In this document: in pieces, positions 49,117 to 62,915 of the stretch
Layout of the letters: the number at the start of each line of letters is the position of its first letter
Position numbering within the stretch: the stretch's first letter is position 1
DNA from: Tuwongella immobilis
GTDB taxonomy: Bacteria > Planctomycetota > Planctomycetia > Gemmatales > Gemmataceae
Direction: 5' to 3'
NCBI RefSeq assembly: GCF_901538355.1
Contig: NZ_LR593887.1
Coordinates: 5,308,920-5,372,919 of the forward strand
Length of the DNA: 64,000 nucleotides
Notes under the pieces: generated by a model
Told to the model about the DNA's origin: nothing
Database searches by the model: none
Seen by the model: only the letters and a program-made list of their open reading frames with translations
Made by a program: the position numbers and the translations under genes

Positions 49117-49425
49117 CTACCTGCGTTCTTCCAACTCCATGATCCATTCGGCCAGGTCGAGGGAATCGAACCCCCATTCGTCCAACCGGCCAGCCCGCAC
49201 CATGTCGGGGCGGATGCCCAGTCTGGCGGCGACCGATTCCACCAGTCCGGCAGCCTCTGGATCAACGTACCGCAATTGTTCACCGTTGGCGATGAACCAC
49301 AACAGCGAACCACACGCGGGGCAGGTGGCATCTCCGAAGGGGCGCGCCGGTTCGATGCGAAAGTCGTGACCGCAGACTGGACAGCGATTCGGAATGCCCT
49401 CGGGTGTCCGCGACGAGATCGTCAT
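49117..49425 (-). CDS. Zinc-ribbon protein with carrier-protein-like C-terminus
   Basis: A 102-residue protein. The N-terminal half has two CxxC pairs (CPVCGHDF and CPACGSLL). The C-terminal half resembles the first part of an acyl carrier protein: VAARLGIRPDMV then WGFDSLDLAEWIMELEE, with the Asp-Ser-Leu that carries phosphopantetheine in true carriers. It stops where helix III would begin. GGAGG lies seven bases before the ATG. A matching carrier domain occurs in the SUMF1 fusion at 55,781-57,079. Confidence 0.6.
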   Translation of the reverse strand: MTISSRTPEGIPNRCPVCGHDFRIEPARPFGDATCPACGSLLWFIANGEQLRYVDPEAAGLVESVAARLGIRPDMVRAGRLDEWGFDSLDLAEWIMELEERR

Positions 49426-49453
49426 TGCCAGCCCTCCGACTGCCAGAACCAGA

Positions 49454-49984: not shown

Positions 49985-50046
49985 CCTTCGGACGACCTCC
50001 GCCGCATCGTGTGAATCGTAATCGCCTTGTCAATGACTCTCCCGAC

Positions 50047-50102
50047 CATCAACGATTGTTCCCAGATGCCGATGCTTGGCTGCATGGGACGAAGTGTTAG
50101 AA
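50047..50102 (-). other. attC-like site at the end of a minus-strand cassette
   Basis: On the minus strand TTCTAAC (50102-50096) and GTTGATG (50053-50047) flank arms that pair as CCCATGC with GCATCTGGG. The left box contains the TAA stop of the preceding gene, as is common for integron cassettes. Single instance; tentative. Confidence 0.4.
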
Positions 50103-50465
50103 CGGGGGAACCCATCCGAACCACTCTTTCCAGTCGGGCACCGACATGTGGAGCAGCATCCCTCCGAGCAGGATGTTGCCCACGCCTCCGATCAGGGCAA
50201 GCGACCAGACCACCATCCACGGCCGAATGCCCCATTGCCGAGTGTACCGCCAGCCGACCGGCAGGCCAGCCAGCACGCCAAGTACCCAGCCGCCACCGAT
50301 CATCAGGAGCATCCCCGCAAAGAGGACGCCGACGATGACTTCGCGGCGGCGGAACAATTCAATGACCAGCCGTGCGAAGCAAGCGAGGGCGATCACCAGC
50401 AATTCGAGTCCAGCGACCAAGAATCCGGTGCTCCAAGCCTGTTTGGTCAACCACGCCGCGTCCAT
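50097..50465 (-). CDS. Small membrane protein of unknown function
   Basis: A 122-residue protein with three or four hydrophobic segments (FLVAGLELLVIALACFARLVI, VIVGVLFAGMLLMIGGGWVLGVLAG and WMVVWSLALIGGVGNILLGGMLL). AAGGAG nine bases before the ATG MDAAWLTK. The stop lies in an attC-like box. No family recognised. Confidence 0.6.
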   Translation of the reverse strand: MDAAWLTKQAWSTGFLVAGLELLVIALACFARLVIELFRRREVIVGVLFAGMLLMIGGGWVLGVLAGLPVGWRYTRQWGIRPWMVVWSLALIGGVGNILLGGMLLHMSVPDWKEWFGWVPPF

Positions 50466-50481
50466 CTGCACCATCTCCTTC

Positions 50482-50560
50482 ACGGAACAATCACGTCCAC
50501 CAGCCCGATCGCATCCGTGAGCGATCCATTCTCAGCGATGAATCAGGCCCGGTTGTTTCC
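50482..50560 (-). other. Possible attC-like site between two membrane-protein genes
   Basis: On the minus strand AACAAC near 50,555 and GTTCCGT (50488-50482) flank arms with ATCGC/GCGAT pairing; the preceding stop codon lies inside. Weak; reported because its position matches a cassette boundary. Confidence 0.25.
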
Positions 50561-50827
50561 GGATGAATTGGGTTTGGTCCGGCGCTCGCCGTCCTCTCCA
50601 ACGGGGTTCCTGCTGGCCGCCTGCACCTCAACAACGTGCGTCCAAGCCGCAGCCAAGACGCACACCGACCCAAAGATACAGAATCCGACGGTTGCGAACC
50701 CATCTCCGAAATCACGATGGCGATGTCCCCCCGTTATCAGCACTGCGAAGACCAGGCAGAACATTGCAAGGGCCAAGAACAGCCGCTTCATTTGCAGCTG
50801 AGCCACCAGGTACCGCATGGTCTGCAT
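50543..50827 (-). CDS. Small membrane protein of unknown function
   Basis: A 94-residue protein with two hydrophobic segments (LFLALAMFCLVFAVLITGG and VGFCIFGSVCVLAAAWTHVVEV) and a polar tail. The start ATG and its GGGAGGG ribosome binding site belong to the duplicated block that also follows the intact LigT-like gene (57,233-57,394), so its expression signals come from that block. Confidence 0.55.
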   Translation of the reverse strand: MQTMRYLVAQLQMKRLFLALAMFCLVFAVLITGGHRHRDFGDGFATVGFCIFGSVCVLAAAWTHVVEVQAASRNPVGEDGERRTKPNSSGNNRA

Positions 50828-50985
50828 CGATAAGCCCTCCCTCGCCGACTGATATTGTACCACCGTATCGCAGTATAGTTGAACTACGAACTCGGCGAAT
50901 CTTGGACAACTGGACCGAGTTTCGTGTTCGGGATCAACGGGAAATTTGCCAGCACCGCGTTGTCCGGGCCGACGAGTTGGAGTTC
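50825..50985. repeat. Duplicated block: LigT-like 3' end plus downstream start signals (copy 1)
   Basis: Some 161 bases almost identical to 57,233-57,394. The block covers the last 33 codons of the LigT-like gene, its stop, and a short region with a TACAAT box and GGGAGGG leading into whichever ATG follows. In this copy the similarity ends exactly at GTTC, where attC-type sequence begins. Confidence 0.85.
50884..50985 (-). pseudogene. LigT-like gene, 3' fragment left of the cassette array
   Basis: Encodes the C-terminal end of the 2H-phosphoesterase (ELQLVGPDNAVLANFPLIPN... up to the TAG), in frame and nearly identical to the intact gene at 57,293. It is cut at GTTC; the sequence that should follow is found at 55,671-55,759, after the array. 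The two pieces are one interrupted gene. Confidence 0.8.
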
Positions 50986-51005
50986 GGCGGCAAGAGGGTA
51001 GCCCA

Positions 51006-51389
51006 ATGATGACGCATCGAATGCTGATCGGTTTCACAGCGGTGGCCTGGGCGCTGCTGTTCGCCATGTCGGGCACCATGACCCACGGTGCAGAGCAGCC
51101 AACGACGCACGGATCAGGGCGATTTCTCATCCCCAAAGCCGTGGCATCGTTCGACAATCACATGCTCGAAATTCGGCTCAATCAAGACGATCCCCGCATC
51201 GCCGACAAGGCTGCCGATTTGGTGGAACGGCTTGAAATCAAACCATTTGCGCACATGCAGGGAACCGACACGAACCAGCCATTCGTCATCGGCGAGAAGG
51301 GCACACTCGACGGCCAGATGGGGTACTACCTGACCGATTTCGTGCATCGGAAGGCGATTGGAGCAAAATTGCCAGACAAGAACGCCTGA
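51006..51389 (+). CDS. Small exported protein of unknown function (first cassette)
   Basis: A 127-residue protein with a signal peptide (MLIGFTAVAWALLFAMSGTMTHGA) and a mature part of about 95 residues (for example RLEIKPFAHMQGTD). GAGGG lies eight bases before the first of two adjacent ATGs. It begins 18 bases after a GTTCGGC box (50,982-50,988), as expected for the first gene of a cassette. No family recognised. Confidence 0.6.
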   Translation: MMTHRMLIGFTAVAWALLFAMSGTMTHGAEQPTTHGSGRFLIPKAVASFDNHMLEIRLNQDDPRIADKAADLVERLEIKPFAHMQGTDTNQPFVIGEKGTLDGQMGYYLTDFVHRKAIGAKLPDKNA

Positions 51390-51558
51390 CCGCCCGTTTC
51401 GGTGATCGGTGGCAAAATCGGCAGAATTTCATTGACAAGTTCGCGGCCATCGATTGAATTGTATCGGGATCAACGAAACGGACAGGATTCGCCGATGCCG
51501 AATGTTCCCGCAAAACCGACCATGTTGCTGGATGTCGTGCGAAAAAGTGTCGACTTCC

Positions 51559-51725
51559 GCCGGGCACAATCGTTCGCTGCCGACATATTCGGCGAAAATG
51601 ACCGGAACCAATGATTGGGATTGAAGTGACGCAGGAAGCAAACGTGACAACAAGACCGTGATCGATTGCGCAGCGCGCAAGGGGGCGTTTCCTTGCGGCG
51701 CAATCGAATCAAGAGTTCGGCGGCC
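51559..51725 (+). repeat. Type II cassette-end repeat, copy 1
   Basis: About 167 bases highly similar to 52,530-52,697: from CGCCGGGC through TGACCGGAACCAA, the palindromic attC-like part and the AGTTCGGCGGC box. The interval 51,390-51,743 holds this repeat and no gene I can support apart from an unconvincing 39-codon frame at 51,495. Confidence 0.85.
51645..51721 (+). other. attC-like recombination site (type II)
   Basis: Left box TGACAAC, arms CGATTGCGC/GCGCAATCG and GCAAGG/CCTTGC, right box GTTCGGC (51,715-51,721). 77 bases. The next ORF starts 23 bases after the right box. Confidence 0.6.
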
Positions 51726-51743
51726 GACGGCGCGAACCTCGCC

Positions 51744-52124
51744 ATGCCGCAAGCCGTCTGTGTCTGCTCGCGGCACGGGCACGACGGGCAGAAGCGTTCG
51801 GCACGCCACCCGGTCGCCGCGCCACACAAGGGGCTTCTGATGGACGACCTGCTCGCCGACTACCCGGCGGTCATCGGGCTGATGCCTACCGACCGCGACT
51901 TCACCAGCCACGAGTTCATCCTGGCCCTGGCCCAGCGCCGGCAAGGGGCGTACATCACCGCCCTGTCCGGGTACGCCGCGGGGGACGCGCCGTTCCGGAC
52001 GCTCCACGGCCAACTCTCGCAGGCGCTCTACGACTACCCCGCGCTGGTCCGGCACACCGGCGAGGTCGCCAGCGAGGACATCTTCCGTAGCCCCGGCCGG
52101 TGCGCGAGCTGGCGGCGGGTGTAG
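51744..52124 (+). CDS. Cassette protein of unknown function
   Basis: A 126-residue protein (MPQAVCVCSRHGHDG...). An internal ATG at 51,840 (MDDLLADYPAVIGL) would give 94 residues. Compact predicted fold with HEFILALAQRRQGAYITALSGYAAGD. It begins just after one attC-like site and stops nine bases before the next one. This start is chosen because cassette genes usually begin close to the site. Not a family I recognise. Confidence 0.5.
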   Translation: MPQAVCVCSRHGHDGQKRSARHPVAAPHKGLLMDDLLADYPAVIGLMPTDRDFTSHEFILALAQRRQGAYITALSGYAAGDAPFRTLHGQLSQALYDYPALVRHTGEVASEDIFRSPGRCASWRRV

Positions 52125-52133
52125 CCCCAGGAC

Positions 52134-52225
52134 GCCGAACCAGGCGCTGCAGCAGACCCCGCCTCATAGGTTGTTTCCAACGCTCAGCGCACTGGAGGCG
52201 GGGCTGCTGAGCTTGATCGTTCGGC
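52134..52225 (+). other. attC-like recombination site (type I)
   Basis: GCCGAAC (52,134-52,140) and its exact complement GTTCGGC (52,219-52,225) enclose long imperfect arms, with CAGCAG.CCCCGCCTC facing GAGGCGGGG.CTGCTG. 92 bases. This is the best-paired site of the array. Confidence 0.7.
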
Positions 52226-52328
52226 GACGGAGGGCTTCGGGGCTGGACAGTCTCGGCACGTTGTCGTTCCCCGATCACTGGATGGCGGTTCATACCGCCC
52301 GGATGTACCCGGTCACTTCCGACGATGA

Positions 52329-52511
52329 GTCGCCACGCACCTGTTGGAAGCCGGGACCGACCTGCGAACGATTCAGGAACTGCTCGGTCACGAGAGCGTC
52401 GAAACGACTATGATCTACACGCATGTGCTGAATCGTGGTCGCCTCGGTGTGATCAGCCCCCTCGACACGAACCCGCTTGACCTCGGGGAAACGCTCGGGG
52501 CGCAAGAGTGA
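52329..52511 (+). pseudogene. Integron integrase (IntI-type) C-terminal fragment
   Basis: 60 open codons preceded by an in-frame stop. They read [20 protein letters not shown], then [17 protein letters not shown] and GVISPLD. This is the C-terminal catalytic end of an integron-type tyrosine recombinase, including the nucleophile tyrosine in MIYTHV and the IntI-typical SPLD tail. The catalytic Arg/Lys half is absent and there is no start codon, so it cannot work. It lies between two attC-like sites in the cassette orientation. Confidence 0.8.
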
Positions 52512-52529
52512 TTTACCCTGTTCGATTGC

Positions 52530-52697
52530 GCCGGGCGCAAACTTTCGCTGGCGACAAATTCGAAAAAAAATGACCGGAACCAACGATTGGGATTGAAGTT
52601 ACGCAGGAAGCAAAAGTAACAATAAGACCGTGATCGATTGCGCGGCGCGCAAGGAGCGTTTCCTTGCGGCGCAATCGAATTAAGAGTTCGGCGGCGG
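52530..52697 (+). repeat. Type II cassette-end repeat, copy 2
   Basis: Second copy of the 51,559-51,725 repeat, differing by scattered substitutions. It follows the integrase fragment directly. Confidence 0.85.
52614..52692 (+). other. attC-like recombination site (type II)
   Basis: Left box AAGTAAC, same palindromic arms as 51,645-51,721, right box GTTCGGC (52,686-52,692). 79 bases. A gene starts 15 bases after it. Confidence 0.6.
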
Positions 52698-52706
52698 AGG
52701 GCAACC

Positions 52707-53171
52707 ATGGTTCTGTTTCGATGTGTTGACTGTGGCGGCAAAGTCAGCGACAGAGCCGAAGCATGCCCGGTTTGCGGTTGTCCGACAAGTCACTCCGCCG
52801 CACCGCCTGCGGAACCGTTGCGAAGTCCTGACGGTGCGCCCATCAGCTGGCTGTACGACGGGCCGCTTCACGGGGTTTGTCCCGTGTGTCAAGTAGAGAG
52901 GGAGTTTGCCCACACTTCGTTCAAGGAGGGCATGGCCCTGCTCGGAGAGGATATCAACGAGTTGGGTCAGGGGAGCGCGAAAAAGGGCTTATTCGCCACG
53001 ATCCTTGCGGATATAGCGAATCTCTTCCGTGGCGGTAAGTGCTCGCCATTATACTTCTGCAAGACGTGTCTTACACGATCTTACATCTGCCGAAACTGCA
53101 TGAAGCCAAATCGCCACTATCCTGTTCGTGAACAGAGGTGCGACCACTGTCACCACCCTATGATAACTTGA
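52707..53171 (+). CDS. Cysteine-rich zinc-ribbon cassette protein
   Basis: A 154-residue protein with four Cys pairs: CVDCGGKV and CPVCGCPT at the N-terminus, CPVCQVE in the middle (about 70) and a cluster CKTC, CRNC, CDHC at the C-terminus. Such proteins bind several zinc ions; the role is unknown. The ATG lies immediately after a GTTCGGCGGCGGAGG site end. A second gene follows before the next site, so this cassette carries two. Confidence 0.6.
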   Translation: MVLFRCVDCGGKVSDRAEACPVCGCPTSHSAAPPAEPLRSPDGAPISWLYDGPLHGVCPVCQVEREFAHTSFKEGMALLGEDINELGQGSAKKGLFATILADIANLFRGGKCSPLYFCKTCLTRSYICRNCMKPNRHYPVREQRCDHCHHPMIT

Positions 53172-53326
53172 CTATGATAAGTCGTCTTCTGGGGGTTCGG
53201 TAGTGGCCAGCAACCTTATGAACTGGGACCCGCTGGGACTCAAGGGCCGGGCGACGACAGCCGTCGGGTGGCTCCCAACATATGGTCTTGGGAGTTGACC
53301 CGGTGGGAATGACAAGGGAGGCATGT

Positions 53327-53641
53327 ATGAAAACCGCGATCATTGCTTACGACCTGAAGCATATCAAGCCGGACGACAATGCTCGCGTCAAACGCGCGCT
53401 GGAAAGCTATGCGAACGCCCACGCAGTGTTGTCAGGCCTTGACGTGTTCAGCCCCTTCCCCCGGTGGGTCGATCTCAAGCTGCCCGACACCACGCTGATC
53501 GTAACCATCGCCAACCCAAACGTCACGGCCGCGCAACTCGCCAGCGAGGTTGCCGGCGTGATCAAGTCTCAGAACGCTACGGTAGGCAAGATTTTCGTTG
53601 CGTTCCTGAGCACGAGCGACGACTTCTTAGTCAACGAGTAA
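53327..53641 (+). CDS. SinR/Cas2-fold-like small cassette protein
   Basis: A 104-residue protein from an ATG after AAGGGAGG. The opening MKTAIIAYDLK, then a mid-protein LPDTTLIVTIANPNVTAAQL and an end KIFVAFLSTSDDFLVNE recall the small SinR-family/Cas2-like ferredoxin-fold proteins (…YDL…, …W.V.T…A..L…, …LFV..L…). This is a resemblance, not a firm assignment. The stop codon lies four bases before the left box of the next attC-like site. Confidence 0.55.
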   Translation: MKTAIIAYDLKHIKPDDNARVKRALESYANAHAVLSGLDVFSPFPRWVDLKLPDTTLIVTIANPNVTAAQLASEVAGVIKSQNATVGKIFVAFLSTSDDFLVNE

Positions 53642-53644
53642 GAC

Positions 53645-53739
53645 GCCGAACCAGGCGTTGCAGCCGACAGCGGGGCATGATTGGTTTGTGGGAGTTCGTG
53701 GCTCAGTGGCCCCGCCGCTGCTGAGCTTAGTCGTTCGGC
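53645..53739 (+). other. attC-like recombination site (type I)
   Basis: GCCGAAC (53,645-53,651) and GTTCGGC (53,733-53,739) with arms GCAGCCGACAGCGGGG facing CCCCGCCGCTGCTG. 95 bases; the preceding stop codon is three bases upstream. Confidence 0.68.
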
Positions 53740-53754
53740 GGCGGAGGCGCATCG

Positions 53755-53901
53755 ATGGCGGAAGCCCCAGATGTGTCGGTGTTGTCGCAACGGGCGCGGC
53801 TGGCAGTCGCTCTCCACTTGTTCCGCGGCTACTGCGACCGCCGCAGTTTGCACCACCCGGAGATCGACCGCTACCTCGGGCACCTGTGGGAGTTTGTATA
53901 G
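53755..53901 (+). pseudogene. Truncated cassette ORF
   Basis: 48 codons from an ATG 15 bases after an attC-like site (MAEAPDVSVLSQRARLAVAL... ending GHLWEFV). It reads like the start of a longer helical protein, but a stop cuts it and unrelated sequence follows. It may be a remnant joined to the next gene's cassette. Confidence 0.4.
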
Positions 53902-53960
53902 TTTTTTGCCGGCGAGTGCGTGATCGCCAGTGTTCGGCGACAGAAATCTTGCGAGGGATC

Positions 53961-54446
53961 ATGGCTATCGACCTGTTCGAGCGCTGGTTCGGCCACAGTA
54001 TTGACAAGCTCCGTGATCTGCCCAATGGTGACGGTGCGTTCGCGGCGCTGATGATCGCCATTCCGCTATACGAGCGGTACATCATTGCCAAGCTCAAGCT
54101 CGAAGGTACAGCGACGGGCGAAGCCGAGGTTCAAGAGGCAGTCGGAAAAGACTTGGGTCTGGAGGATTGGCAACGCCGTATCTTCTGGCAGATGTTCCGG
54201 GTTGGCTTCATGCACCAAGCGATGGTGATGGACGGGAAGACCAAGTGGATGGTCAGTCACGTGTTCGGAGACGTTCCAGAGTTCAAGAGTATCGCAGGTG
54301 TTAACTACATCTGCTTCGATCCGTGGAAGTTCACGGACCGAGTTCTCTCGAAGTATCGAGCCGACCACCGGCTCATCACTGCTTCAGAGAGTTTTCCGCT
54401 GGCGAGCATCTTCGCTTTTCCGGCGGGGACCATCCCTGGCGTTTGA
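53961..54446 (+). CDS. Cassette protein of unknown function
   Basis: A 161-residue, mainly helical soluble protein (MAIDLFERWFGHSIDKLRDLPNGDGAFAALM...) from an ATG after GAGGG. A Trp/Phe-rich middle (DWQRRIFWQMFRVGFMHQAM) and VNYICFDPWKF near the end. No family recognised. It stops 19 bases before the next attC-like site. Confidence 0.6.
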   Translation: MAIDLFERWFGHSIDKLRDLPNGDGAFAALMIAIPLYERYIIAKLKLEGTATGEAEVQEAVGKDLGLEDWQRRIFWQMFRVGFMHQAMVMDGKTKWMVSHVFGDVPEFKSIAGVNYICFDPWKFTDRVLSKYRADHRLITASESFPLASIFAFPAGTIPGV

Positions 54447-54465
54447 CCGGTATGTAGCCACAGAC

Positions 54466-54562
54466 GCCGAACCATCTGCTGCAGCAGACGGCGGGGGCAC
54501 ATAGGCGTTCCCAGTGTTCACGCTCTCCGCGCCCCGCCGGCAGGTGAGCTTGATCGTTCGGC
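54466..54562 (+). other. attC-like recombination site (type I)
   Basis: GCCGAAC (54,466-54,472) and GTTCGGC (54,556-54,562), with GGCGGGGGC facing GCCCCGCC in the arms. 97 bases. Confidence 0.62.
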
Positions 54563-54579
54563 GGTGGAGGGCTTCTGGG

Positions 54580-54852
54580 GTGGGGAGGCTTCGGTACACG
54601 CTCGCGGAGGCGCGGGAAGAGGCGACGCGACGGGCCGAGGCGTTCGTCGCCGACCGCCCGGACCGCGACCAGTTCCGGCTCCGTGGGGCGAGGCCTGATT
54701 CGCTGGTGCCGCCGAGCCGGGCGTCCAAGCACCCGGTCGCCTGGGTGGTGGTGTACGCCCGGATTCCGCCAGACGGCGGCGTCATCGACGGCGGCGAGTT
54801 GTTCGTGGCCGTCGATCTGGAGCGGGGCACGGTCGGCCTTCGCCCCTGGTGA
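54580..54852 (+). CDS. Small cassette protein of unknown function
   Basis: A 90-residue protein from a proposed GTG start 18 bases after the site. AWVVVYARIPPDGGVIDGGELFVAVDLERGTVGL suggests an alpha/beta fold. It stops 10 bases before the next site. The start is uncertain, since longer frames run back through the attC-like site. Confidence 0.45.
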   Translation: MGRLRYTLAEAREEATRRAEAFVADRPDRDQFRLRGARPDSLVPPSRASKHPVAWVVVYARIPPDGGVIDGGELFVAVDLERGTVGLRPW

Positions 54853-54862
54853 GGCCGCAGAC

Positions 54863-54961
54863 GCCGCCCCAGGGGCGAAGGCCGACCGGGGCCCCATGTT
54901 CGCTTTCCCGTGTTCATTGTCGCTCAGCGTGCCCCGCCGCTGCTAAGCTTGGTCGTTCGGC
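54863..54961 (+). other. attC-like recombination site with degraded left box
   Basis: The left box reads GCCGCCC instead of GCCGAAC; the right box GTTCGGC (54,955-54,961) is intact, as is the GCCCCGCCGCTGCT arm. 99 bases. Confidence 0.55.
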
Positions 54962-54985
54962 GGCGGAGGCGCAAGGAGGTGCCCA

Positions 54986-55459
54986 ATGCGGTCTGTGGCA
55001 GTTTTCCTCTTGGTCGTGGTCGGCTTGTTGAACGTTGGGTGTGCTGGTGGTACTCGCGGTGCCGGAGGTCTGCATGTCGGGAATGCCAGAGGATCGTTCG
55101 TCTCGCAAGACGACAAGCTGGTGTTCGTGGTGCTGGGTGATGAGGGGAATGGGGGCAGTGCCGGAACAGGTTTTGACCGCTTCACGGGCGCGTTGCGCAC
55201 GGATGACGGGCGGGAGATCCCGTGGCAGGTTCGCACCGGCGACGGGAAAAGTGGGCGGGCGACGATAGACGGCGTGGAGTATGACCTCGCGCAGGGTTGT
55301 CTGTTCCTTGTCTCGACCCGCGACAGGAAGACGCAGGTCCGGCAGGTTCCTCGTGACCCTTCCGGTGTCACCCACTGGGATGTGGAACGAGCGGTCGTCC
55401 AGTGGGCAGAGTCCGATCCGGAGATACGGGAATTCGTCAAGGCGGCCCGGAAGAGGTAG
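54986..55459 (+). CDS. Cassette-encoded lipoprotein of unknown function
   Basis: A 157-residue protein with a lipoprotein signal (MRSVAVFLLVVVGLLNVGC) and a beta-rich mature part (VFVVLGDEGNGGSAGTGFDRF). AAGGAGGTG precedes the ATG, which lies 25 bases after the attC-like site. The stop lies eight bases before the next left box. It is a complete cassette in every respect. No family recognised. Confidence 0.62.
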   Translation: MRSVAVFLLVVVGLLNVGCAGGTRGAGGLHVGNARGSFVSQDDKLVFVVLGDEGNGGSAGTGFDRFTGALRTDDGREIPWQVRTGDGKSGRATIDGVEYDLAQGCLFLVSTRDRKTQVRQVPRDPSGVTHWDVERAVVQWAESDPEIREFVKAARKR

Positions 55460-55466
55460 CCCAGAC

Positions 55467-55551
55467 GCCGAACCAGGCGCTGCAGCGGACAGCGGGGCAT
55501 GATTGGTTTCTGGGAGTTCATGGCTCACCGGTCCCCTGCCGCTGCTGGGGT
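55467..55551 (+). other. attC-like site, right end broken
   Basis: Left box GCCGAAC (55,467-55,473) and left arm nearly identical to the site at 53,645, but the right arm ends at GCTGCTG and no GTTCGGC follows. The next 115 bases to 55,667 hold nothing recognisable except GAGGTCGTTCG, which resembles a right-box approach. Confidence 0.55.
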
Positions 55552-55670
55552 GGGTCGACGATGATGCTGTGGGGAGTCAAGCTCCTGTTCTGATTTTCTT
55601 CTTGGTCGGTCTCACATCGTTCTTCGCCATCGTTGGTGCCGAGCATCCGCTTCGCCGAGGTCGTTCGTTC

Positions 55671-55759
55671 GGTGACCTCGAATTCGCTCAGGGGAGTCAG
55701 GCGGGCGAAAATCGGCCAGATGGATGCGGTTCGATGGCCTTGCTCCGGATCGGGTCGCA
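55671..55759 (-). pseudogene. LigT-like gene, middle fragment right of the cassette array
   Basis: About 89 bases matching 57,395-57,475 of the intact gene (EQGHRTAS.WPIFA...EFEVTE), beginning exactly where the left fragment at 50,985 stops. Beyond 55,759 the similarity ends. With the left piece it forms one gene split by the array. Confidence 0.75.
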
Positions 55760-55780
55760 TGCCTTTTCAACCGGAGGTCG

Positions 55781-57079
55781 TCACTGGACATCCTTCACGG
55801 AACTGATGCAGCGAAACCCAAGGCATCGGCCACGGGCCGCAACGGGTCGCCCTCGGCGATAGGAACTGCGGCACAACTCGGCTGGCCCCACCCAACTCCC
55901 TCCTCGCTCACTTCGCGTTCCAGTCGGGGTTCGATTGAGGGGATTGGCCTTACCCGCTTCGGCTCGCTGGTAGAAGCCGGGATCGTACCAATCACGACAC
56001 CATTGCCAGACGTTCCCGGCCATGTGATGTAACCCGAACGGTGATCGGCCCAGCGGTTCATTGACGTCGGCCATTGGGAGGGTGTCCGCACGATACTGTG
56101 CCGATCGTCGGTGTTGACCGTACCGCATCTGAACCAGCGATGGTGGCGAATCCCCCCAAGGAAACGGCTGGTATCGGACCCCTCGGGCCGCATATTCCCA
56201 TTGTGCCTCGCTCGGGAGAAAACTCCCATCCACGAGATCAGAATCGTCTCGATAAGTCCGCCAGTCCCTTCCATTTGCCCAAAGTGAGTAAGCGTTCGCT
56301 CCATACCACGAAACGAGGATCATGGGCCAGCGATCGGTCCCCGGCACCGGTCGCCAGTCGTCTCCAGCGCATTCCACGAGTTGATGCAAGTTCCGATCGT
56401 CGTCTGCAGGAAGCACGAACCAGTCTCCCAGTGCTTCACGAGGGATCTCATCCAGCGAATTGAGAAATCGACAGTAGGCCGTGGTGGACACAGGTTCGGC
56501 ATCGATCAGGAATGAATCGAGTTCAACGATGTGCTTCGGACGCTCATCAAGGAGCGCATCTGGTTCATCACAACCAATTTCAACAGCTGCTTTGGGGATG
56601 AGAACACATCGCATTCCATCCGAGCGTCGGCGGTACTGCCGCCCCGAAGTCACCCCCGTTAAGGGTTCAAAAAGTGACAGATGATGTCGTGGATCCGTTT
56701 GCCAACGGCCATCGAGTTGCGTGAAGGGTTGGGACGATGCCGCGCGGGGATTGATGATCGGCTTCCGCCATCGCGTTCGTTCAGGCGTTCCAGTGCCTTG
56801 TTGGATGTAGATCAACTCGGCCAAGTCCGAGAGACGAAACGGCTGGCGGGTGAAGATGGTCTTGGACACCGGGTCCGGTCCATCATTCGGCAATGTGACA
56901 CCGAACGTTTCCTCGAGGGTCATCACCAGTTCCACGAGGTCAAGGCTGTCGCACCCCAGATCTTCGACCAGCGAATGAGTCGGCAGAATCTGATCCCGGC
57001 GGATTCCCAACTCCACGGATGTCACATCACAGATGCGGCATTCGATTTCACTCCGAGACAATCGCATCTTGTCTGCCAT
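55781..57079 (-). CDS. Acyl-carrier-like domain fused to a SUMF1-family protein
   Basis: A 432-residue fusion. Residues about 5-75 look like an acyl carrier protein (EDLGCDSLDLVELVMTLEETFGVTLP, with the phosphopantetheine Ser). From about 145 on is a formylglycine-generating/SUMF1 fold: VELDSFLIDAEPVSTTAYCRFLN, LPSEAQWEYAARG, GNVWQWCRDWY, RGGSWVG and CLGFRC. The Cys pair of true formylglycine-generating enzymes is not evident, so sulfatase activation is unlikely. The ATG is preceded by GAGGGCGGG. Lies downstream of the intact LigT-like gene. Role unknown; a nonheme-iron or C-type-lectin-like binding role is possible. Confidence 0.75.
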   Translation of the reverse strand: MADKMRLSRSEIECRICDVTSVELGIRRDQILPTHSLVEDLGCDSLDLVELVMTLEETFGVTLPNDGPDPVSKTIFTRQPFRLSDLAELIYIQQGTGTPERTRWRKPIINPRAASSQPFTQLDGRWQTDPRHHLSLFEPLTGVTSGRQYRRRSDGMRCVLIPKAAVEIGCDEPDALLDERPKHIVELDSFLIDAEPVSTTAYCRFLNSLDEIPREALGDWFVLPADDDRNLHQLVECAGDDWRPVPGTDRWPMILVSWYGANAYSLWANGRDWRTYRDDSDLVDGSFLPSEAQWEYAARGVRYQPFPWGDSPPSLVQMRYGQHRRSAQYRADTLPMADVNEPLGRSPFGLHHMAGNVWQWCRDWYDPGFYQRAEAGKANPLNRTPTGTRSERGGSWVGPAELCRSSYRRGRPVAARGRCLGFRCISSVKDVQ

Positions 57080-57232
57080 CTGCCCGCCCTCGATCATCAT
57101 CACCGTCGTTCTGCCCCGACCGACTTGGGGAGATTCCTTGGGTCGTTCCGTGAAGCGGCATCATCGCAGGCGAACTCGGCCCCCGCTCTGCGCGGAGCTG
57201 TCCGTCCGTTGCGCATCGGTGAGCGACTCCAA

Positions 57233-57394
57233 CATCGATAAGCCCTCCCTTCGCCAACTGATATTGTACTCCCGTATCGGCGTATGGTTGAACTACGAAC
57301 TCGGTGAATCTTGGACAACTGGACCGAGTTTCGTGTTCGGGATCAACGGGAAATTTGCCAGCACCGCGTTGTCCGGGCCGACGAGTTGGAGTTC
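57233..57394. repeat. Duplicated block: LigT-like 3' end plus downstream start signals (copy 2)
   Basis: Partner of 50,825-50,985. Here it is continuous with the intact gene. Downstream it leads into a 24-codon frame beginning at ATG 57,235 that ends near 57,161 and looks like a remnant. Confidence 0.85.
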
Positions 57395-57826
57395 CGTGAC
57401 CTCGAATTCGCCCAGTAGGGGCAGGCTGGCGAATATCGGCCATGCGGATGCGGTTCGATGGCCTTGCTCCGGATGCAGCAGCGTGACGTGCAGGCCGAAC
57501 CGCTCCCGTGTTGTGAATGGCGATGCCAGCACCGATGCTCGGATGCCCGCGACGGCATCGGATGGGTCCGCCACGGTCAGGAACGCCCCGCCGAGCGGCT
57601 CGGCGAATCGTGCGGCCTGGCCTAACGACAGCCGAAACGGTGCCGTCTGGGCCGCGGTCTGTTGGAGTCGCTCGGCAAGCATCGCCGGGTCGGGAGCCTC
57701 ATCCTGATACACCACCGTGATGTGAGCCGGGTTGCCGATTGCTCGCTCTGGGTTCCATTCGGTCCGCAGGCGGTCGATCTCCCGCCGCACCGCCAGCGGC
57801 AACGTGATTCGGGCCTGCACCTTCAT
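57293..57826 (-). CDS. 2'-5' RNA ligase-like (2H phosphoesterase) protein
   Basis: A 177-residue 2H-superfamily protein. The two HxT motifs are HITVVY (about residue 37) and HVTLLHP (about 113). These enzymes act on 2'-5' or 2',3'-cyclic phosphodiester bonds in RNA or nucleotides. I start at MKVQARITLPL because GGAGGTGA lies eight bases upstream; longer starts exist at 57,856 and 57,916. Three partial copies of this gene occur in the island (50,884; 55,671; 61,556), so it marks recombination joints. Confidence 0.78.
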   Translation of the reverse strand: MKVQARITLPLAVRREIDRLRTEWNPERAIGNPAHITVVYQDEAPDPAMLAERLQQTAAQTAPFRLSLGQAARFAEPLGGAFLTVADPSDAVAGIRASVLASPFTTRERFGLHVTLLHPEQGHRTASAWPIFASLPLLGEFEVTELQLVGPDNAVLANFPLIPNTKLGPVVQDSPSS

Positions 57827-57975
57827 GACTTCGATCACCTCCGCGATGGAAGCCATTCCCTCACCGACCTTTGCGCCGCCGTGAGTGGGTGGCTTGGACA
57901 AGGTAACCTCTCCCAAACTGCGCAGATCGATTCCGCAATAGGGGCGACCGACTCAGAATCGCTTGTCCTTGAGGA
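57734..57975. repeat. Duplicated block: LigT-like 5' end with upstream region (copy 1)
   Basis: About 240 bases, nearly identical to 61,583-61,823 over 220 of them. It covers the first 31 codons of the LigT-like gene, its ribosome binding site and about 130 bases upstream, including the last codons of a preceding gene ending KDKRF/KGKRI. Confidence 0.85.
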
Positions 57976-58177
57976 GCGATCGCAATGGCACCCATCGGAA
58001 GTAGGAAATCGTTCTGACACGACATGAATACGATCGCTTCGCTCAATATCCAGCCCCCGATCATCACGAGACGATGAATTGACGCGATGAGCGAGACGCA
58101 TTCAGACTTCAATTGCCGAATCCTCACAACGACGTGCAAGTCGCGGCGGCGGAAGGCTCCTTCCCCCGTCCCATTCC

Positions 58178-58267
58178 GTGGCCCTAGTCGACCCGATGGG
58201 CTTGAGCGGAAACGAGTTACCTCAAGGGACGCGATGGTTACAGGAAACCGACGTGGTATTGCTCTGA
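58178..58267 (+). pseudogene. Displaced Rhs-type tip remnant
   Basis: 29 codons reading VALVDPMGLSGNELPQGT and then a short divergent end. DPMGL is the end of the Rhs core; what follows should be a variable toxin tip, here cut after 11 residues. It lies in a 90-base block repeated at 59,730-59,820. Confidence 0.5.
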
Positions 58268-58289
58268 CTGTTCGGGCCTGACTGCGTGG

Positions 58290-59042
58290 TCAAGATCGCC
58301 TCAGGGTCAACGCAACGCGGAAACCAAACCAAGCCCTGCGAGCACTACGTCCAGTGTATCCCCGATGTGCCGAGCGGAACACACGAAAGTCCGTCGTCCC
58401 CCAACTCCCACTTCGGAACGTGACACCGATTTTGTCGTGAGTTCCAACCCAATCGATGGCATCTTCAGAGGGGTAAGGCGTGTACCCGTCGAGACACCAC
58501 TCCATGACATTGCCTTGAAAATCAAAAAGCCCCCAGGCGTTTGGGAGTTTCAGCCCGACCGGATGGGTTTCGCCATTGCAATTACCGCCATGCCAAGCGT
58601 ACTCGTTCAGGCACTCTGCGGATTCACCACAAAAGTACGGGGTGGTCGTACCGGCTCTGCAACAGTATTCCCACTGCGATTCCGAGGGGAGGGCGAACAG
58701 GCATCCGGCGGGCAGTTCTGAACGCAGTGAGGCGTTGAGTCGTTCGCAACAGGCCAAAGCGTCGTCCCAGCTGACACATTCAACGGGCCGATTAGCGTCT
58801 GAGCAAAAGCGGCTTGGGTTCATACCCATCAAAGCCGCGTACTGTCCCTGAGTGATGAAGTACGCGCCGATCCAAAATCCGTGGGCGAATGTGGATCGGA
58901 ACTGACGTTCATCAGGGTTGCGACCAACTTCCGTCGCCGGACTTCCCATCAAGAAGCTGCCCGGCTGAATCCACTTCAGTAGCAGCGGGCGGGTGGACTC
59001 ACCTTCCAGGGACCACTCCCAGTCTTGACCGACTTCGATCAT
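58290..59042 (-). CDS. SUMF1-family protein
   Basis: A 250-residue formylglycine-generating-enzyme-like (SUMF1/EgtB/PvdO fold) protein. Motifs: WIQPGSFLMGSP, FWIGAYFITQGQYAALMG, PVECVSWDDALACCERLN, LPSESQWEYCCRAG, GNVMEWCLDGY and FRSGSWG..FRSAHRG...GFRVAL. The ATG follows GGAGG; a GTG three codons earlier is less well spaced. It begins 16 bases after the stop of the toxin-tip frame, so it is probably co-transcribed with it. A role as its partner or immunity factor is only inferred from position. Confidence 0.82.
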   Translation of the reverse strand: MIEVGQDWEWSLEGESTRPLLLKWIQPGSFLMGSPATEVGRNPDERQFRSTFAHGFWIGAYFITQGQYAALMGMNPSRFCSDANRPVECVSWDDALACCERLNASLRSELPAGCLFALPSESQWEYCCRAGTTTPYFCGESAECLNEYAWHGGNCNGETHPVGLKLPNAWGLFDFQGNVMEWCLDGYTPYPSEDAIDWVGTHDKIGVTFRSGSWGTTDFRVFRSAHRGYTGRSARRAWFGFRVALTLRRS

Positions 59043-59057
59043 GACAGACACCTCCGA

Positions 59058-59588
59058 TTATTTGCCGAGACCGCGCCAGGTATCGATGTCCACCCTACGA
59101 ACGGTGCGTCCAGTAGAGTCTTTGCGATCCTTCAGTAGCTGATCTCTCAACGGCCCGACGACCTCTTGTGTCCGATAGTTCGGCAGGTTCACACCGTTCG
59201 AGTAAGTGGACACCGTGATTTCACCATTGGCCTCAAGCCTGACCGTAAAGCCCACCGTCTTCGTGGTATCGGCATCAACGAACTGCCGAATCCCGATGTC
59301 CACGTCGTCCTTGAGGGTCAAATGCTCCCCTTGCCCCGTCTGGGGATCGCCGACCTTGTCCATCGGCTCCCCGCCTCCCTTGAGCTTGGTTGGCCCACTC
59401 GGACGAAGAATGGACTTGCCCGAAACAGGATCGTACACGCCCGACAGTACAGCACCTGCATCGTATCCGGCAAGGTTCGCCGCGTTCCTGGCGGCGTGAT
59501 TGTCGCCCACGTTCGAGACGGAGTGCTGGAGTTCACTCCTCCTTGCGGCTGGGGCATTGATTTTCCGGAGCTGAGCAAGGTTCTTCAC
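59058..59588 (-). pseudogene. Probable polymorphic-toxin C-terminal tip lacking a proper start
   Basis: The frame from a GTG at 59,588 encodes 176 residues (…LAQLRKINAPAARRSELQHSVSN..., SGVYDPVSGKSILRPSGP, ending DIDTWRGLGK). Coding-like sequence continues upstream (LIEAIGGGSNASRLAELLDDFGPDCLLLVKN) to an in-frame stop at the microsatellite near 59,684, with no ATG and no ribosome binding site. So it looks like the 3' end of a larger toxin gene cut off from its N-terminal delivery part. The catalytic type is not recognised. Next gene: SUMF1 family. Confidence 0.5.
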
Positions 59589-59683
59589 CAGCAGAAGGCA
59601 GTCTGGGCCAAAATCATCGAGCAGCTCGGCAAGACGACTGGCGTTCGAACCACCTCCGATCGCCTCAATGAGCGTTGCTCTTC

Positions 59684-59729
59684 AACGTTAACGTTCACGT
59701 TCACGTTCACGTTAACGTTCACGTTCACA
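59684..59729. repeat. Hexanucleotide microsatellite (CGTTMA units)
   Basis: About seven and a half units alternating between CGTTAA and CGTTCA. It separates the truncated toxin frame (minus strand) from a displaced Rhs tip (plus strand). Confidence 0.85.
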
Positions 59730-59857
59730 GTCGCGGCGGCGACAGGCTCCTCCCCTCCTCCCATTCCGTGGCCCTAGTCGACCCGATGGGCTTGAGCGGA
59801 AACGAGTTGCCTCAAGGGACGGAGAGGTACAAGAAAGTTCACAGGAGACAAACTTAA
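59730..59857 (+). pseudogene. Displaced Rhs-type tip remnant
   Basis: Shares the first 90 bases with 58,140-58,230: VALVDPMGLSGNELPQGT in frame, then a different end (ERYKKVHRRQT, stop at 59,857). No start of its own. Same core, different tail is the hallmark of Rhs tip exchange. Confidence 0.5.
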
Positions 59858-60432
59858 CTCCACCACCTGCCCCGCCGTTTGGCCGTAAGGGTCGTTTGGG
59901 GAAGTTGCAAGAGGTCGTGCATTCGAGCAGCGAGTTTGCGGTTGTAGGGGCTTACTGACTCGCCAAAACAGAAGAGACAAGCATCGACAACAAGGCGGCG
60001 CTCGGTATCGCACGCACGGACGATTAGATAATCACCGTCGAGCATTTCGGCAGCAGGACAGAAGTCGTTCAATTCCCAAAGGCCGTATCGGGTAAGATAA
60101 TCCATCTGGGTTCGAGCAAAGTCCCAGCGACACGAAATCTCCCCCTGCCAGGACACCCCCTCACGCTCCCGGGCCAAGTGGTGCAGTGGACAGGGGGCGT
60201 GTTGCGCCATGCTGCGGTAGGCGAGGGGGACGGCGATTGTCTCAGTCCGAAAGAACGTGGCCTCCGAATCGTTAACCAGCATCGCGATGCCTGTGCGATG
60301 CCATTCGAGGACGGCAAGGTATTCGATCACCACGCCTCGTCCGGTAGCCCCAGTTAACGAGTGGAGAGGTGACTGTTCAAAGACAGTCTGTGTGCGGATG
60401 GTCCGTAACCATTCTCGTTGCAGCTCAGTCAC
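59854..60432 (-). CDS. Protein of unknown function, possible immunity protein
   Basis: A 192-residue soluble protein from a GTG start after AAAGGG. Cys-, Trp- and His-containing middle (LAREREGVSWQGEISCRWDF, LWELNDFCPAAEMLDGDYLIV). No family recognised. It follows the Imm49-like gene and the 72-codon frame on the same strand within 250 bases, so it is probably in that operon. Position among immunity genes is the only hint of role. Confidence 0.55.
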   Translation of the reverse strand: MTELQREWLRTIRTQTVFEQSPLHSLTGATGRGVVIEYLAVLEWHRTGIAMLVNDSEATFFRTETIAVPLAYRSMAQHAPCPLHHLAREREGVSWQGEISCRWDFARTQMDYLTRYGLWELNDFCPAAEMLDGDYLIVRACDTERRLVVDACLFCFGESVSPYNRKLAARMHDLLQLPQTTLTAKRRGRWWS

Positions 60433-60462
60433 GATAAATACCCTTTGAGTGTTCGCTGCCCA

Positions 60463-60681
60463 TCAGGGCAAGAAGCGACCGATTGAGACCAAGTCGTCCA
60501 TCCTGTCGTTCCCCACTTCAATCCACCGCCTGCGCGAACCATCCAGAAATCTGTGTCTCAAAGCAGTGATGCTGCTGAGGATATCGCGACCAGCGGTCAC
60601 GCTGACGATGCCTTGACCCGCACTAACCGCTGCTGTGATCTCGCGTCCAGCGGACTGCAAGCGAGACACATCTGCACTCAT
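60463..60681 (-). CDS. Small protein coupled to the Imm49-like gene
   Basis: A 72-residue frame whose ATG overlaps the Imm49-like stop by four bases (ATGA). It reads MSADVSRLQSAGREITAAVS... ending DDLVSIGRFLP. The overlap supports translation by coupling, but there is no family match and no ribosome binding site of its own. Confidence 0.4.
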   Translation of the reverse strand: MSADVSRLQSAGREITAAVSAGQGIVSVTAGRDILSSITALRHRFLDGSRRRWIEVGNDRMDDLVSIGRFLP

Positions 60682-61559
60682 TTGGGGACTATCTTTGGAA
60701 CTTCTACGCGATTGAACAGCTCTCCCGTTACCCAGCTCCATGGGAGATAATCGCTCTCCACATGAAATCGCATCCCTCGATCCCACGCCAACGCGGCGAG
60801 TGCAACAAGTGGAAGCGATACCATCCCATTGAGATCCTCAGCCCTCTTCTGGGGAGTCGCCCAATACTTCTTGTGAAGAGACGCAGCCTTCGTCAGTTCC
60901 GCCTCAAGACCAGATACCGAGTTTTCACCGATCCTACGAAGTACTCGGTGGTATGGTATCCTCAGACACTTCAGCATCTTTAATCCAATGGATTTGCTGG
61001 TGAGAACCGCTTTCGCTTCCCAAGCCTCACATCGGAGAAGCAGTGGTTCCCACGCAAACCCACTCTCTTGGGCTGCTCGTTGTTTGAGCTCCAGGAACCA
61101 GTATGCTTCATCGTCGTATCCAACCAAGTTCGAGCCTTTGAATGTGTCTTTTGTCACTCGACAGAGATACTGTAAGGGTATCGTTTGGCGAGTGATTAGT
61201 GACAAATGGTACGCTCGCTGCCAAAGTAAAATATCGCATATACCTGGATCGATCGGGGTCGGGTAGCAAACGGGTGGCCCCTCCCCAATCGGATATTCGC
61301 TTGGCGGAGGGTCCAATCGAAATGCGAAGACTGCGCCGAGTGCTTGTGCAGCGATCCGCAGGGCGCGAGCTACCTCCGGGCTATCGGGGGCAATGACTGC
61401 TCCCGCGAGGTAAACATTCTGGGCACACGAAGAAACAAAACTGGTCAGCCCTCGAATTCTATTTATACAGTTTGACAGACGAGAGTCGAAGCTCTTGCAG
61501 TCGCGTGTGAACCACTGCTCCACGACGTTCATGTCGACTGGGTGCCGGCTGATTTTCAT
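60678..61559 (-). CDS. Imm49-like immunity protein
   Basis: A 293-residue, mostly helical protein. The C-terminal part LNGMVSLPLVALAALAWDRGMRFHVESDYLPWSWV, and the overall length, match my memory of the Imm49 family of polymorphic-toxin immunity proteins. AAGGAG lies four bases before the ATG MKISRHP. The ATG overlaps the stop of a truncated LigT-like leader frame (ATGA), so the gene uses the duplicated LigT 5' block as its upstream region. No cognate toxin gene is adjacent. Confidence 0.62.
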   Translation of the reverse strand: MKISRHPVDMNVVEQWFTRDCKSFDSRLSNCINRIRGLTSFVSSCAQNVYLAGAVIAPDSPEVARALRIAAQALGAVFAFRLDPPPSEYPIGEGPPVCYPTPIDPGICDILLWQRAYHLSLITRQTIPLQYLCRVTKDTFKGSNLVGYDDEAYWFLELKQRAAQESGFAWEPLLLRCEAWEAKAVLTSKSIGLKMLKCLRIPYHRVLRRIGENSVSGLEAELTKAASLHKKYWATPQKRAEDLNGMVSLPLVALAALAWDRGMRFHVESDYLPWSWVTGELFNRVEVPKIVPK

Positions 61560-61675
61560 AACACTCCTTCGAGTGGAGCCTCGCCGATTGCTCGCTCTGG
61601 GTTCCATTCGGTCCGCAGTCGGTCGATCTCCCGCCGCACCGCCAGCGGCAACGTGATTCGGGCCTGCACCTTCAT
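61556..61675 (-). pseudogene. Truncated LigT-like gene acting as leader of the Imm49-like gene
   Basis: 39 codons: the first 31 are identical to the intact gene (MKVQARITLPLAVRREIDR...), the rest is new (EAPLEGVL). The same GGAGGTGA ribosome binding site is kept. The stop overlaps the next ATG. Confidence 0.65.
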
Positions 61676-61823
61676 GACTTCGATCACCTCCGCGATGGAA
61701 GCCATTCCCTCACCGACCTTTGCGCCGCCGTGAGTGGGTGGCTTGGACAAGGTAACCTCTCCCAAACTGCGCAGATTGATTCCGCAATAGGGGCGACCGA
61801 CTCAGATCCGCTTGCCCTTGAGG
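61583..61823. repeat. Duplicated block: LigT-like 5' end with upstream region (copy 2)
   Basis: Partner of 57,734-57,975. Similarity stops abruptly at 61,583, inside the LigT-like coding region. Confidence 0.85.
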
Positions 61824-62419
61824 AGCGCCTGGAAGTAGCGGGCGACTTCGGATTCCAATTTCGCGATCGGCCGGAACTGGCACGCTTCCAACCACGCTCC
61901 GCTGCCGTCCGGGAGATAGCAGAGTTGACTACCCGAGAGCGTTTCCAAGAACGGAACCGCTTGGGCCGGGTCGATTGGGCCGCCCGGTTCGACCCACATC
62001 CCCGACTCGGTGACTGGGGCGAGCCGATCCCCGGCACGCAGTCCGCCAGCCACGTCGAATCCATTCTCCCGGAACGCTCCGATCACGCCGTAGAGTCGGC
62101 GAAGGAACGCTGGCATGTCGGGCCGCAGTGGCATTGACCGAGGCAGGCTGATCGCCGGTTCGCCCAAGAATTGGAACCGGAAATAGGGGCGGTACGGCGC
62201 GTTGCCGGTGGCATAGAATTGCAACTCGTACCAACTCTCGGCACACTTGGCGAGCAGTTTCTTGAGCCAGGATGGTGCATCGGCATCGGCAAGCGTGGCG
62301 AAATACTCCGGCCCGGTCCGGATCGCCAGGATGTCTTGTTCCGTCAAAACCGTTCGGAATTCATCCGGAAGTGCGTCGATCTCCGGCTCATATACCGTTG
62401 CCATTCGCACAATGAACAT
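61802..62419 (-). CDS. Possible SUKH-like immunity protein
   Basis: A 205-residue protein from an ATG after AAGGAG. Phrases such as AFLRRLYGVIGAFRENGFDVAGGL, GMWVEPGGPIDPAQAVPFLETLSGSQLCYLPDGSGAWL give a general SMI1/KNR4 (SUKH) look, but I could not fix the family. Its last codons (KGKRI) lie in the duplicated block shared with 57,953-57,975, where a related end (KDKRF) survives without the rest of the gene. It lies upstream of the LigT-leader/Imm49 unit on the same strand. Confidence 0.5.
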   Translation of the reverse strand: MFIVRMATVYEPEIDALPDEFRTVLTEQDILAIRTGPEYFATLADADAPSWLKKLLAKCAESWYELQFYATGNAPYRPYFRFQFLGEPAISLPRSMPLRPDMPAFLRRLYGVIGAFRENGFDVAGGLRAGDRLAPVTESGMWVEPGGPIDPAQAVPFLETLSGSQLCYLPDGSGAWLEACQFRPIAKLESEVARYFQALLKGKRI

Positions 62420-62761
62420 TCCATTCGCTCCTTGTTGGCTTTGAACGATCCAACGCCCCGGCTAGGTGCCAATCTGGAACCGCCCCGCCCGATACCGCCG
62501 ACTGGGTGCCGCCGACTGGGTGCCGCCCCAGCAACCAACCTCGAACGCGGGCCAGGAGAATATCACCATCCGCCAGCTCATCTGGCACCGGGTGCTGATT
62601 CTGGTTGTTGAACGACGCCGCAAGAATGATCGGCACGAAACAGCCGACGGCTTCAGTATCGATAGCCCGGCATGACGAGGGATTACTTGCTGGCAGACCG
62701 CCCCCCCCCCGCGAATGAGGATGCTCCGGATCAACACGAAGCCGTTCACGGACGGCCAACG

Positions 62762-62796
62762 AAAACGGCTTCACCCGAAGAAGGTGAAGCCGCCGA
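62762..62796 (-). terminator. Terminator of the DUF1254-type gene
   Basis: A perfect 10-base-pair stem (62,766-62,775 with 62,783-62,792) followed on the minus strand by TTTTC, about 120 bases past the stop codon. The surrounding gap 62,420-62,915 also holds a 14-base unit repeated twice (about 62,496-62,523) and a run of ten C at 62,701; I see no gene in it. Confidence 0.5.
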
Positions 62797-62915
62797 AGTG
62801 GTGCAAATAGTGGAGCGGTGAAGGAGATCATCCCCAGCAATGGGATCCCGACATGGAGGCCGATGACACTGGTGCAGCCGCTTTCGCCGCTCGGCTGCAC
62901 GAACGTCACCACCGC

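Follow-up and report, generated by a model that had tools for sequence, protein, structure and literature searches.

An acyl-carrier domain fused to a SUMF1-fold domain without the formylglycine cysteine pair in Planctomycetota

The window analysed here is a stretch of 64 000 nucleotides from the genome of Tuwongella immobilis, which consists of one contig of 6.69 Mb. Its minus strand carries a gene in which an acyl-carrier domain is followed, after a linker, by a domain of the FGE/SUMF1 fold (Table 1). The original prediction had placed such a fusion in this interval without naming a strand, and the interval does correspond to a single open reading frame encoding both domains. Translation could instead start at an in-frame GTG at 57103, which would add eight residues (440 in all); the majority of the family begin at or near the ATG listed in the table.

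Table 1. Coordinates of the fusion gene and its features (window positions; residues numbered from the ATG)
Feature	Position	Strand	Basis or conservation
Carrier-SUMF1 fusion gene	55781..57079	minus	432 aa from ATG at 57079
Acyl-carrier domain, residues 7-94	56798..57061	minus	Pfam PF00550 and four helices in AlphaFold2
S45, expected phosphopantetheine attachment serine, DSL motif	56945..56947	minus	Ser in 31/31 and 2 further members
Family-specific KxxFxR..FR..DLAE, residues 73-94, last carrier helix 83-92	56798..56863	minus	F76, R78 and D85 invariant (31/31)
Linker, residues 95-145, conserved FTQLxG (119-124)	56645..56797	minus	pLDDT <50 at 102-120
FGE/SUMF1-fold domain, residues 146-428	55796..56644	minus	Pfam PF03781 and VIA-align
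H323, invariant, family-specific	56111..56113	minus	31/31 and 2 further members; 0/28 other SUMF1-fold rows with a residue there
H352, invariant	56024..56026	minus	31/31 and 2 further members; Asp/Asn in other SUMF1-fold rows
G398, position of FGE catalytic Cys1 (human C336)	55886..55888	minus	Gly in 31/31 and 2 further members
C403, position of FGE Cys2 (human C341)	55871..55873	minus	Cys in 30/31 and 1/2 further members

The surroundings of the gene in the window comprise a 2'-5' RNA ligase-like gene (57293-57916), a second SUMF1-fold protein and repeats. The second SUMF1-fold protein (58290-59051, minus strand) stands alone ∼1.2 kb from the fusion and has neither a carrier match nor the FGE cysteine pair. 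An 84-nt direct repeat (87% identity; 55667-55750 and 57391-57474) flanks the fusion gene, its upstream copy lying inside the 3' part of the ligase-like gene. Longer direct repeats of 245 nt (98%; 57734-57978 and 61583-61827) and 147 nt (95%; 50839-50985 and 57248-57394) are also present, and six repeat families occur within window positions 49000-64000. A homologue of the Imm49 immunity protein is encoded at 60678-61607 on the minus strand (94.8 bits, cut-off 30.1), near which there may be a polymorphic-toxin locus.

Other carrier-like sequences were recorded separately. The window open reading frame at 49117-49566 (minus strand) combines a CxxC zinc-ribbon-like stretch with a carrier-like start, GFDSLDLAEWIMELEE, and ends at a TAG; its PP-binding match (21.8 bits, cut-off 20.8) reads through one TAG, and it is possibly a truncated second carrier-type gene. 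The same zinc ribbon is found 125 bases upstream of the Candidatus Laterigemmans fusion (L051:9160-9702, plus strand), there joined to a PTS EIIA-2 domain (73.4 bits, cut-off 27). The remainders of these two frames differ, EIIA-like in one and carrier-like in the window frame, which lies 6.2 kb from the fusion. The zinc ribbon appears to be a module that is combined with various domains. Tandem carriers of the GIDSIKRVEI type were noted in a 2238-residue frame, with a phosphopantetheinyl-transferase-like gene ∼23 kb away (G000:C1:3340660-3341172 and 3364340-3364552; loci L011, L012 and L015).

Pfam matched the fusion protein with PP-binding at 34.9 bits (cut-off 20.8) and FGE-sulfatase at 132.7 bits (cut-off 23.3), and detected no third domain at E <= 0.01. 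Both domains were matched in all 20 members of the family that were scanned, PP-binding at E <= 0.001. Together with the AlphaFold2 model described below, this bears out the order of domains first proposed, a carrier and then a SUMF1-type domain. Two outcomes had been named beforehand as fatal to that proposal, a failure of the N-terminal half to fold as a four-helix carrier and a joint of two separate genes. Neither was found: the model gives four carrier helices, and the protein is a single product of one frame. An accidental joint or a sequencing artefact has a negligible chance of being correct, since the same joint recurs in 33 members from separate assemblies, among them several single-contig genomes.

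The 33 different full-length members found all belong to the Planctomycetota; 31 of them were placed in an alignment and two were read as translated alignments. By BLAST, the other 32 are 47-66% identical to the T. immobilis protein, with spans starting at residues 1-37 and ending at 425-432 of the latter. They spread over four family-level groups of its class (f1, f2, f3 and f6) and the class of a Phycisphaerae metagenome-assembled genome (MAG), and include Candidatus Laterigemmans baculatus, Blastopirellula marina DSM 3645, Paludisphaera soli and the MAG itself. Every one of 95 genomes of the same taxonomic family gives at least one match at E 1e-10, in most cases to the SUMF1 half, and three including the host encode the full-length protein (the other two being 64% and 63% identical); a 66-residue C-terminal fragment at a contig end in genome G035 was left out. 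Five loci found twice were counted once, and the proteins of L052 and L053 are identical to those of L047 and L048. The locus L192 (genome G661) was dropped as a canonical ACP.

A sample spread evenly over the phylum held the fusion in 10 of 392 genomes, one copy each, and the class of the Phycisphaerae MAG in three of 248, the MAG included. A peptide-pattern scan of genome contigs returned 11 loci, of which 10 were full-length members. The eleventh, L061, matched at E 2e-5 over only 40 query residues around the search pattern and was rejected; none of 297 genomes of its phylum has the fusion, a sample without a known positive and hence one from which we draw no inference. The scan uses exact patterns and misses members: it returned six matchable genomes (G019, G490, G503, G514, G525 and G664) of the 27 positive ones in the class described next, some of the remainder of which may lie outside the scanned collection. 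The restriction to Planctomycetota is thus a statement of where members were found rather than a proven limit.

Profiles of each half were then applied to 297 genomes of the class. The carrier profile (105 positions) matched in 27 genomes at E 3.2e-34 or better, running from positions 1-6 to 102-105 in frames of 419-568 residues, while the next match outside these was at E 1e-20, over positions 8-72 of 105 in a 140-residue frame. Among the matches listed, the non-fusion ones look like free-standing ACPs of the usual kind, almost always in short frames, and the canonical ACPs stop at positions 71-73. The SUMF1 profile picked out the identical 27 genomes and the same frames at E 1e-40 or better, weaker matches being excluded from the fusion subtype. 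The carrier subtype and the SUMF1 subtype are therefore obligately fused, in 27 of the 297 class genomes and in one frame each.

Both domains are under purifying selection, dN/dS over seven close pairs being 0.07-0.40 for the carrier (the values of the closest pairs coming from few changes) and 0.13-0.21 for the SUMF1 domain. On a tree of the 31 aligned members, in which 15 of the 28 inner branches have good support and deep support is weak, the family label changes five times, compared with 13.4 times when labels are shuffled. Descent thus looks largely vertical, with exceptions such as L055. Of 135 plasmid records that match the fusion protein none covers 80% of the query, and the best 8 of the 135 span residues 124-429 at most. 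None of 23 viral stretches that fit a pattern is a relative, and PADLOC gave no defence-system match for the protein.

The flanking open reading frames of 20 members, with those overlapping the fusion removed, were compared all-against-all (the flanks of L055 and L058 being short). Twelve of the 108 clusters join two or more lineages, several of them resembling antisense frames, and none holds more than four of the 20 loci, so that no neighbour can be called conserved. Named by eye, the 12 include leucine-rich-repeat-like, pseudopilin-like (FTLVELLV), sulfatase-like, ATP-binding and dehydratase-like proteins. The sole cluster that lies within 1 kb in two lineages is the pseudopilin-like one (+462 in L055; +484 and -560 in L077). 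No adenylating enzyme or other partner linked to the fusion was seen in this comparison.

Within one genus the fusion is present in nine of 14 sampled genomes and missing from five. Here it adjoins a gene for an 805-residue protein, which is held by all eight genomes tested, five of them without the fusion. In the four of these five that were inspected, no trace of the fusion is left beside this gene, and in three of the four the next gene is one that elsewhere follows the fusion. The fusion gene is thus gained or lost alone. This lone presence or absence, together with the lack of a consistent neighbour, favours a self-sufficient protein.

The phosphopantetheine serine recognized in the original prediction is kept, S45 being Ser in 33 of 33 members; it is preceded by D44 in 32 and by Glu in one (a DSL-type motif). 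Pairwise identity of the carrier among the 31 aligned members averages 51% and ranges from 29% to 98%, and E56 is invariant in all 31. The domain is acidic, with a median net charge of -9 over residues 7-72 across the family (-12 for the whole FAS-type ACP of the host genome). The linker is 46-56 residues long in 30 of 31 members and 81 in one. Its mean pairwise identity is 33%, with F119 and G124 kept in 31/31 and Q121 in 30/31. It had been suggested that an Sfp-type transferase be sought, and two phosphopantetheinyl-transferase-like genes, as well as a separate canonical ACP, are indeed encoded elsewhere in the host genome.

These data bear on whether the carrier is still in use. It could be vestigial or purely structural, carrying no phosphopantetheine, so that the SUMF1-fold domain acts alone; residues 73-94 do depart from canonical ACP, and the domain scores below the NCBIfam ACP equivalog cut-offs (for the FAS ACP equivalog TIGR00517, 49.7 against 70.45 bits). 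We regard this as unlikely, given that S45 persists in every member despite carrier identities down to 29%, that E56 is invariant in a domain under purifying selection, and that the SUMF1 subtype never occurs without the carrier in the 297 class genomes.

A structural model was obtained with AlphaFold2 from an alignment of 46 rows, comprising 11 fusions, 33 SUMF1-fold sequences and two ACPs, the latter two groups taken from viral contigs. These 35 came from a hand-picked set of 40 SUMF1-fold rows (from 79 loci) and three ACP rows (from four), all 43 of which passed a frame check. The model (pLDDT 89.7, pTM 0.74) supersedes one from a three-row alignment, which had reached a pLDDT of 37. It places carrier helices at residues 9-24, 45-59, 70-76 and 83-92, with block pLDDT values of 75-97 over residues 1-100, followed by a disordered stretch (102-120) and then the FGE/SUMF1 fold. 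Because the C-terminal ends of the two ACP rows were in part misaligned, support for the last carrier helix comes mainly from the 11 fusions.

The second half was compared with known structures using Foldseek and VIA-align. The VIA-align matches included FGE of T. curvata (5nyy; Z 28.1, rmsd 2.8, 243 residues), PvdO (Z 26.8, rmsd 3.4, 248 residues), Treponema denticola variable protein 1 (Z 26.4, rmsd 2.7, 234 residues), CalU17 (Z 25.4, rmsd 3.2, 238 residues) and EgtB (Z 23.1, rmsd 3.0, 225 residues). Since FGE, PvdO and the T. denticola protein lie within two Z units of one another, the fold alone picks no function.

The SUMF1 part has a mean pairwise identity of 60% among the 31 aligned members, and its positions were compared with those of the 33 viral-contig rows (the other SUMF1-fold rows; 31 in the charge comparison), an unbalanced sample. 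The Cys1 position of FGE, assigned by alignment to wild-type human FGE and to the FGE-like L001 of the host genome, is Gly in 33 of 33 members. At the Cys2 position 31 of the 33 members retain Cys, which says little, because 27 of the 33 other rows have it too. The absence of the formylglycine cysteine pair, remarked on at the outset, thus holds through the loss of Cys1. At position 352 all 33 members have His; of the 33 other rows, 30 have Asp, two Asn and one Gly, and Asp is also found in six of six further SUMF1-fold proteins of the host genome. Gln occupies position 359 in 26 of the 31 aligned members, Glu in 32 of the 33 other rows. These two positions may be those of the human FGE calcium ligands N293 and E300. 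FGE is described as holding two calcium ions (PMC7279497).

Further residues set the family apart: H323, E391, R411, R418 and C419 are invariant in 31/31 members and each no more frequent than 7% in the other SUMF1-fold rows, which mostly have Asn or Ser at the position of H323. There are 76 invariant positions in all, 20 of which fall within residues 391-424, the segment that holds the active-site cysteines in FGE. A basic patch at 386-424 was considered as a phosphopantetheine-binding surface and rejected as not specific, its median charge being +7 in the family and +5 in the other rows with overlapping ranges.

If the fusion were an enzyme that generates formylglycine, or otherwise activates sulfatases, and had gained a carrier, the close match to the FGE fold would be accounted for, and a sulfatase-like gene does lie 277 bases (-277) from the L080 member and 4.4 kb (+4424) from the L072 member, in two of the 20 loci compared. 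The copper-site Cys1 is Gly in all members, and the host genome has the separate FGE-like gene L001 with both cysteines (RGGSFLCxxxYC). The fusion is accordingly not a formylglycine-generating enzyme, and we give this alternative very little weight. The fusion probably performs other chemistry on a carrier-held group, or makes other use of it, than sulfatase activation.

Among enzymes of the SUMF1 fold, FGE accepts a substrate thiol in its pocket and acts on it, and EgtB and OvoA couple a thiol to histidine derivatives. An arm serving a domain of its own protein is favoured by the unchanging S45, the acidic core of the carrier and the obligate fusion of the two halves. The pocket, having lost one of the two cysteines that bind copper in FGE, is not that of FGE. 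We therefore lean, with a little less than even confidence, towards a repurposed SUMF1 pocket to which a phosphopantetheine arm of the same protein offers its thiol or a group bound to it. Such a protein, the product of a single gene with two domains and presumably cytosolic, would work in cis. S45 would receive 4'-phosphopantetheine from an AcpS-like or Sfp-like transferase of the host, and the arm thiol could be loaded by general metabolism, for example fatty-acid synthesis. Swinging on the linker of ∼50 residues, the arm would present the thiol or bound group to the SUMF1 pocket, and the rebuilt pocket would modify or hold that group by chemistry other than that of FGE. Against this reading count the disordered stretch that connects the domains in the model and the scores of the carrier below the ACP equivalog cut-offs. 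The original prediction had offered either an oxidoreductase acting on a carrier-bound substrate or carrier-mediated tethering. Tethering fits the anatomy, with its invariant serine, flexible linker and obligate fusion; nothing supports the oxidoreductase: of the two FGE copper ligands one is lost, no DinB iron domain was matched in the protein (Pfam, E <= 0.01) and no cofactor site was recognizable.

The same anatomy could serve recognition rather than catalysis. The SUMF1/C-type-lectin fold would then bind a protein or ligand, while the carrier either signals acyl-ACP status or serves as a module that docks on enzymes of fatty-acid metabolism. PorK, the variable proteins of diversity-generating retroelements (DGR), Mtd and SUMF2, none of them known to be catalytic, are among the fold matches; FGE Cys1 is lost in the family, and across the 20 loci pathway genes are not consistently linked to the fusion. 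There is a precedent in human pFGE, which is reported to lack the FGE active site and to antagonise FGE (PMC13199485), so that a binding role is possible for this fold. The concentration of invariant positions in residues 391-424 suits a pocket and fits binding or catalysis alike, and no partner protein was found among the flanking frames. On this evidence a binding or sensing protein is a substantial possibility, though on balance doubtful.

The in-cis arm could also be taken a step further, to a new class of SUMF1-fold enzyme that is fed by its own phosphopantetheine arm and has a site remodelled around H323 and H352, with Gly in place of Cys1; this we think improbable. In such an enzyme the H323/H352 site might be a new metal centre. 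It is likewise a long shot that, as such an enzyme, the protein would unite carrier and tailoring enzyme in one gene outside any assembly line. More generally, fusion to a phosphopantetheine carrier would tether the thiol to the protein on an arm of its own. This would widen the known uses of the SUMF1 fold and offer a small self-contained system for carrier-dependent tailoring in Planctomycetota. If the protein is instead a sensor, its carrier domain would serve regulation in cis, an unusual use.

Among known systems, the carrier half is most readily set beside canonical FAS AcpP, with which it shares the DSL serine, an acidic helix II and four helices. It differs in having its own last segment, KxxFxR..FR..DLAE, in being always fused in the sampled genomes and in scoring below the equivalog cut-offs. 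The sulfoxide and selenoxide synthases EgtB, OvoA, OvsA and SenA also carry a SUMF1-like fold C-terminally behind another domain (Z 15.8-23.1). That first domain is a DinB-like iron domain, whereas in the fusion it is an acyl carrier without a DinB match, and the fusion scores 71.6 bits against the EgtB equivalog (cut-off 360) and 62.0 against SenA (cut-off 420). PvdO (pyoverdine), CalU17 (calicheamicin) and ToxD (toxoflavin), from secondary-metabolite pathways, share the SUMF1 fold (Z 26.8, 25.4 and 21.6); for ToxD and CalU17 the sequence match covers the SUMF1 part of the fusion only, and against the PvdO equivalog NF051459 the fusion reaches 41.6 bits (cut-off 500). The score against the GldK/PorK equivalog TIGR03525 is 80.3 bits (cut-off 350).

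FGE itself resembles the fusion in the fold of residues ∼146-428 (Z 26.8-28.1 over the FGE rows), the RGGSW segment and the Cys2 position. It differs at Cys1, at 352 and mostly at 359, as set out above, and the fusion adds the N-terminal carrier. The two active-site cysteines of FGE are described as binding Cu(I) (PMC12123546). Human pFGE/SUMF2 (1y4j, Z 23.9) offers, as far as its published description goes, a SUMF1 fold without the FGE active site (PMC13199485); it is eukaryotic and has no carrier domain, and the likeness drawn here is one of fold, not residue by residue. Among the open-access papers listed, judged by title and the opening of the abstract, none describes a carrier-SUMF1 fusion. 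On its sequence, we therefore class the protein as a putative new combination of two known kinds of domain, an acyl carrier and a SUMF1 fold, the latter with an apparently rebuilt site.
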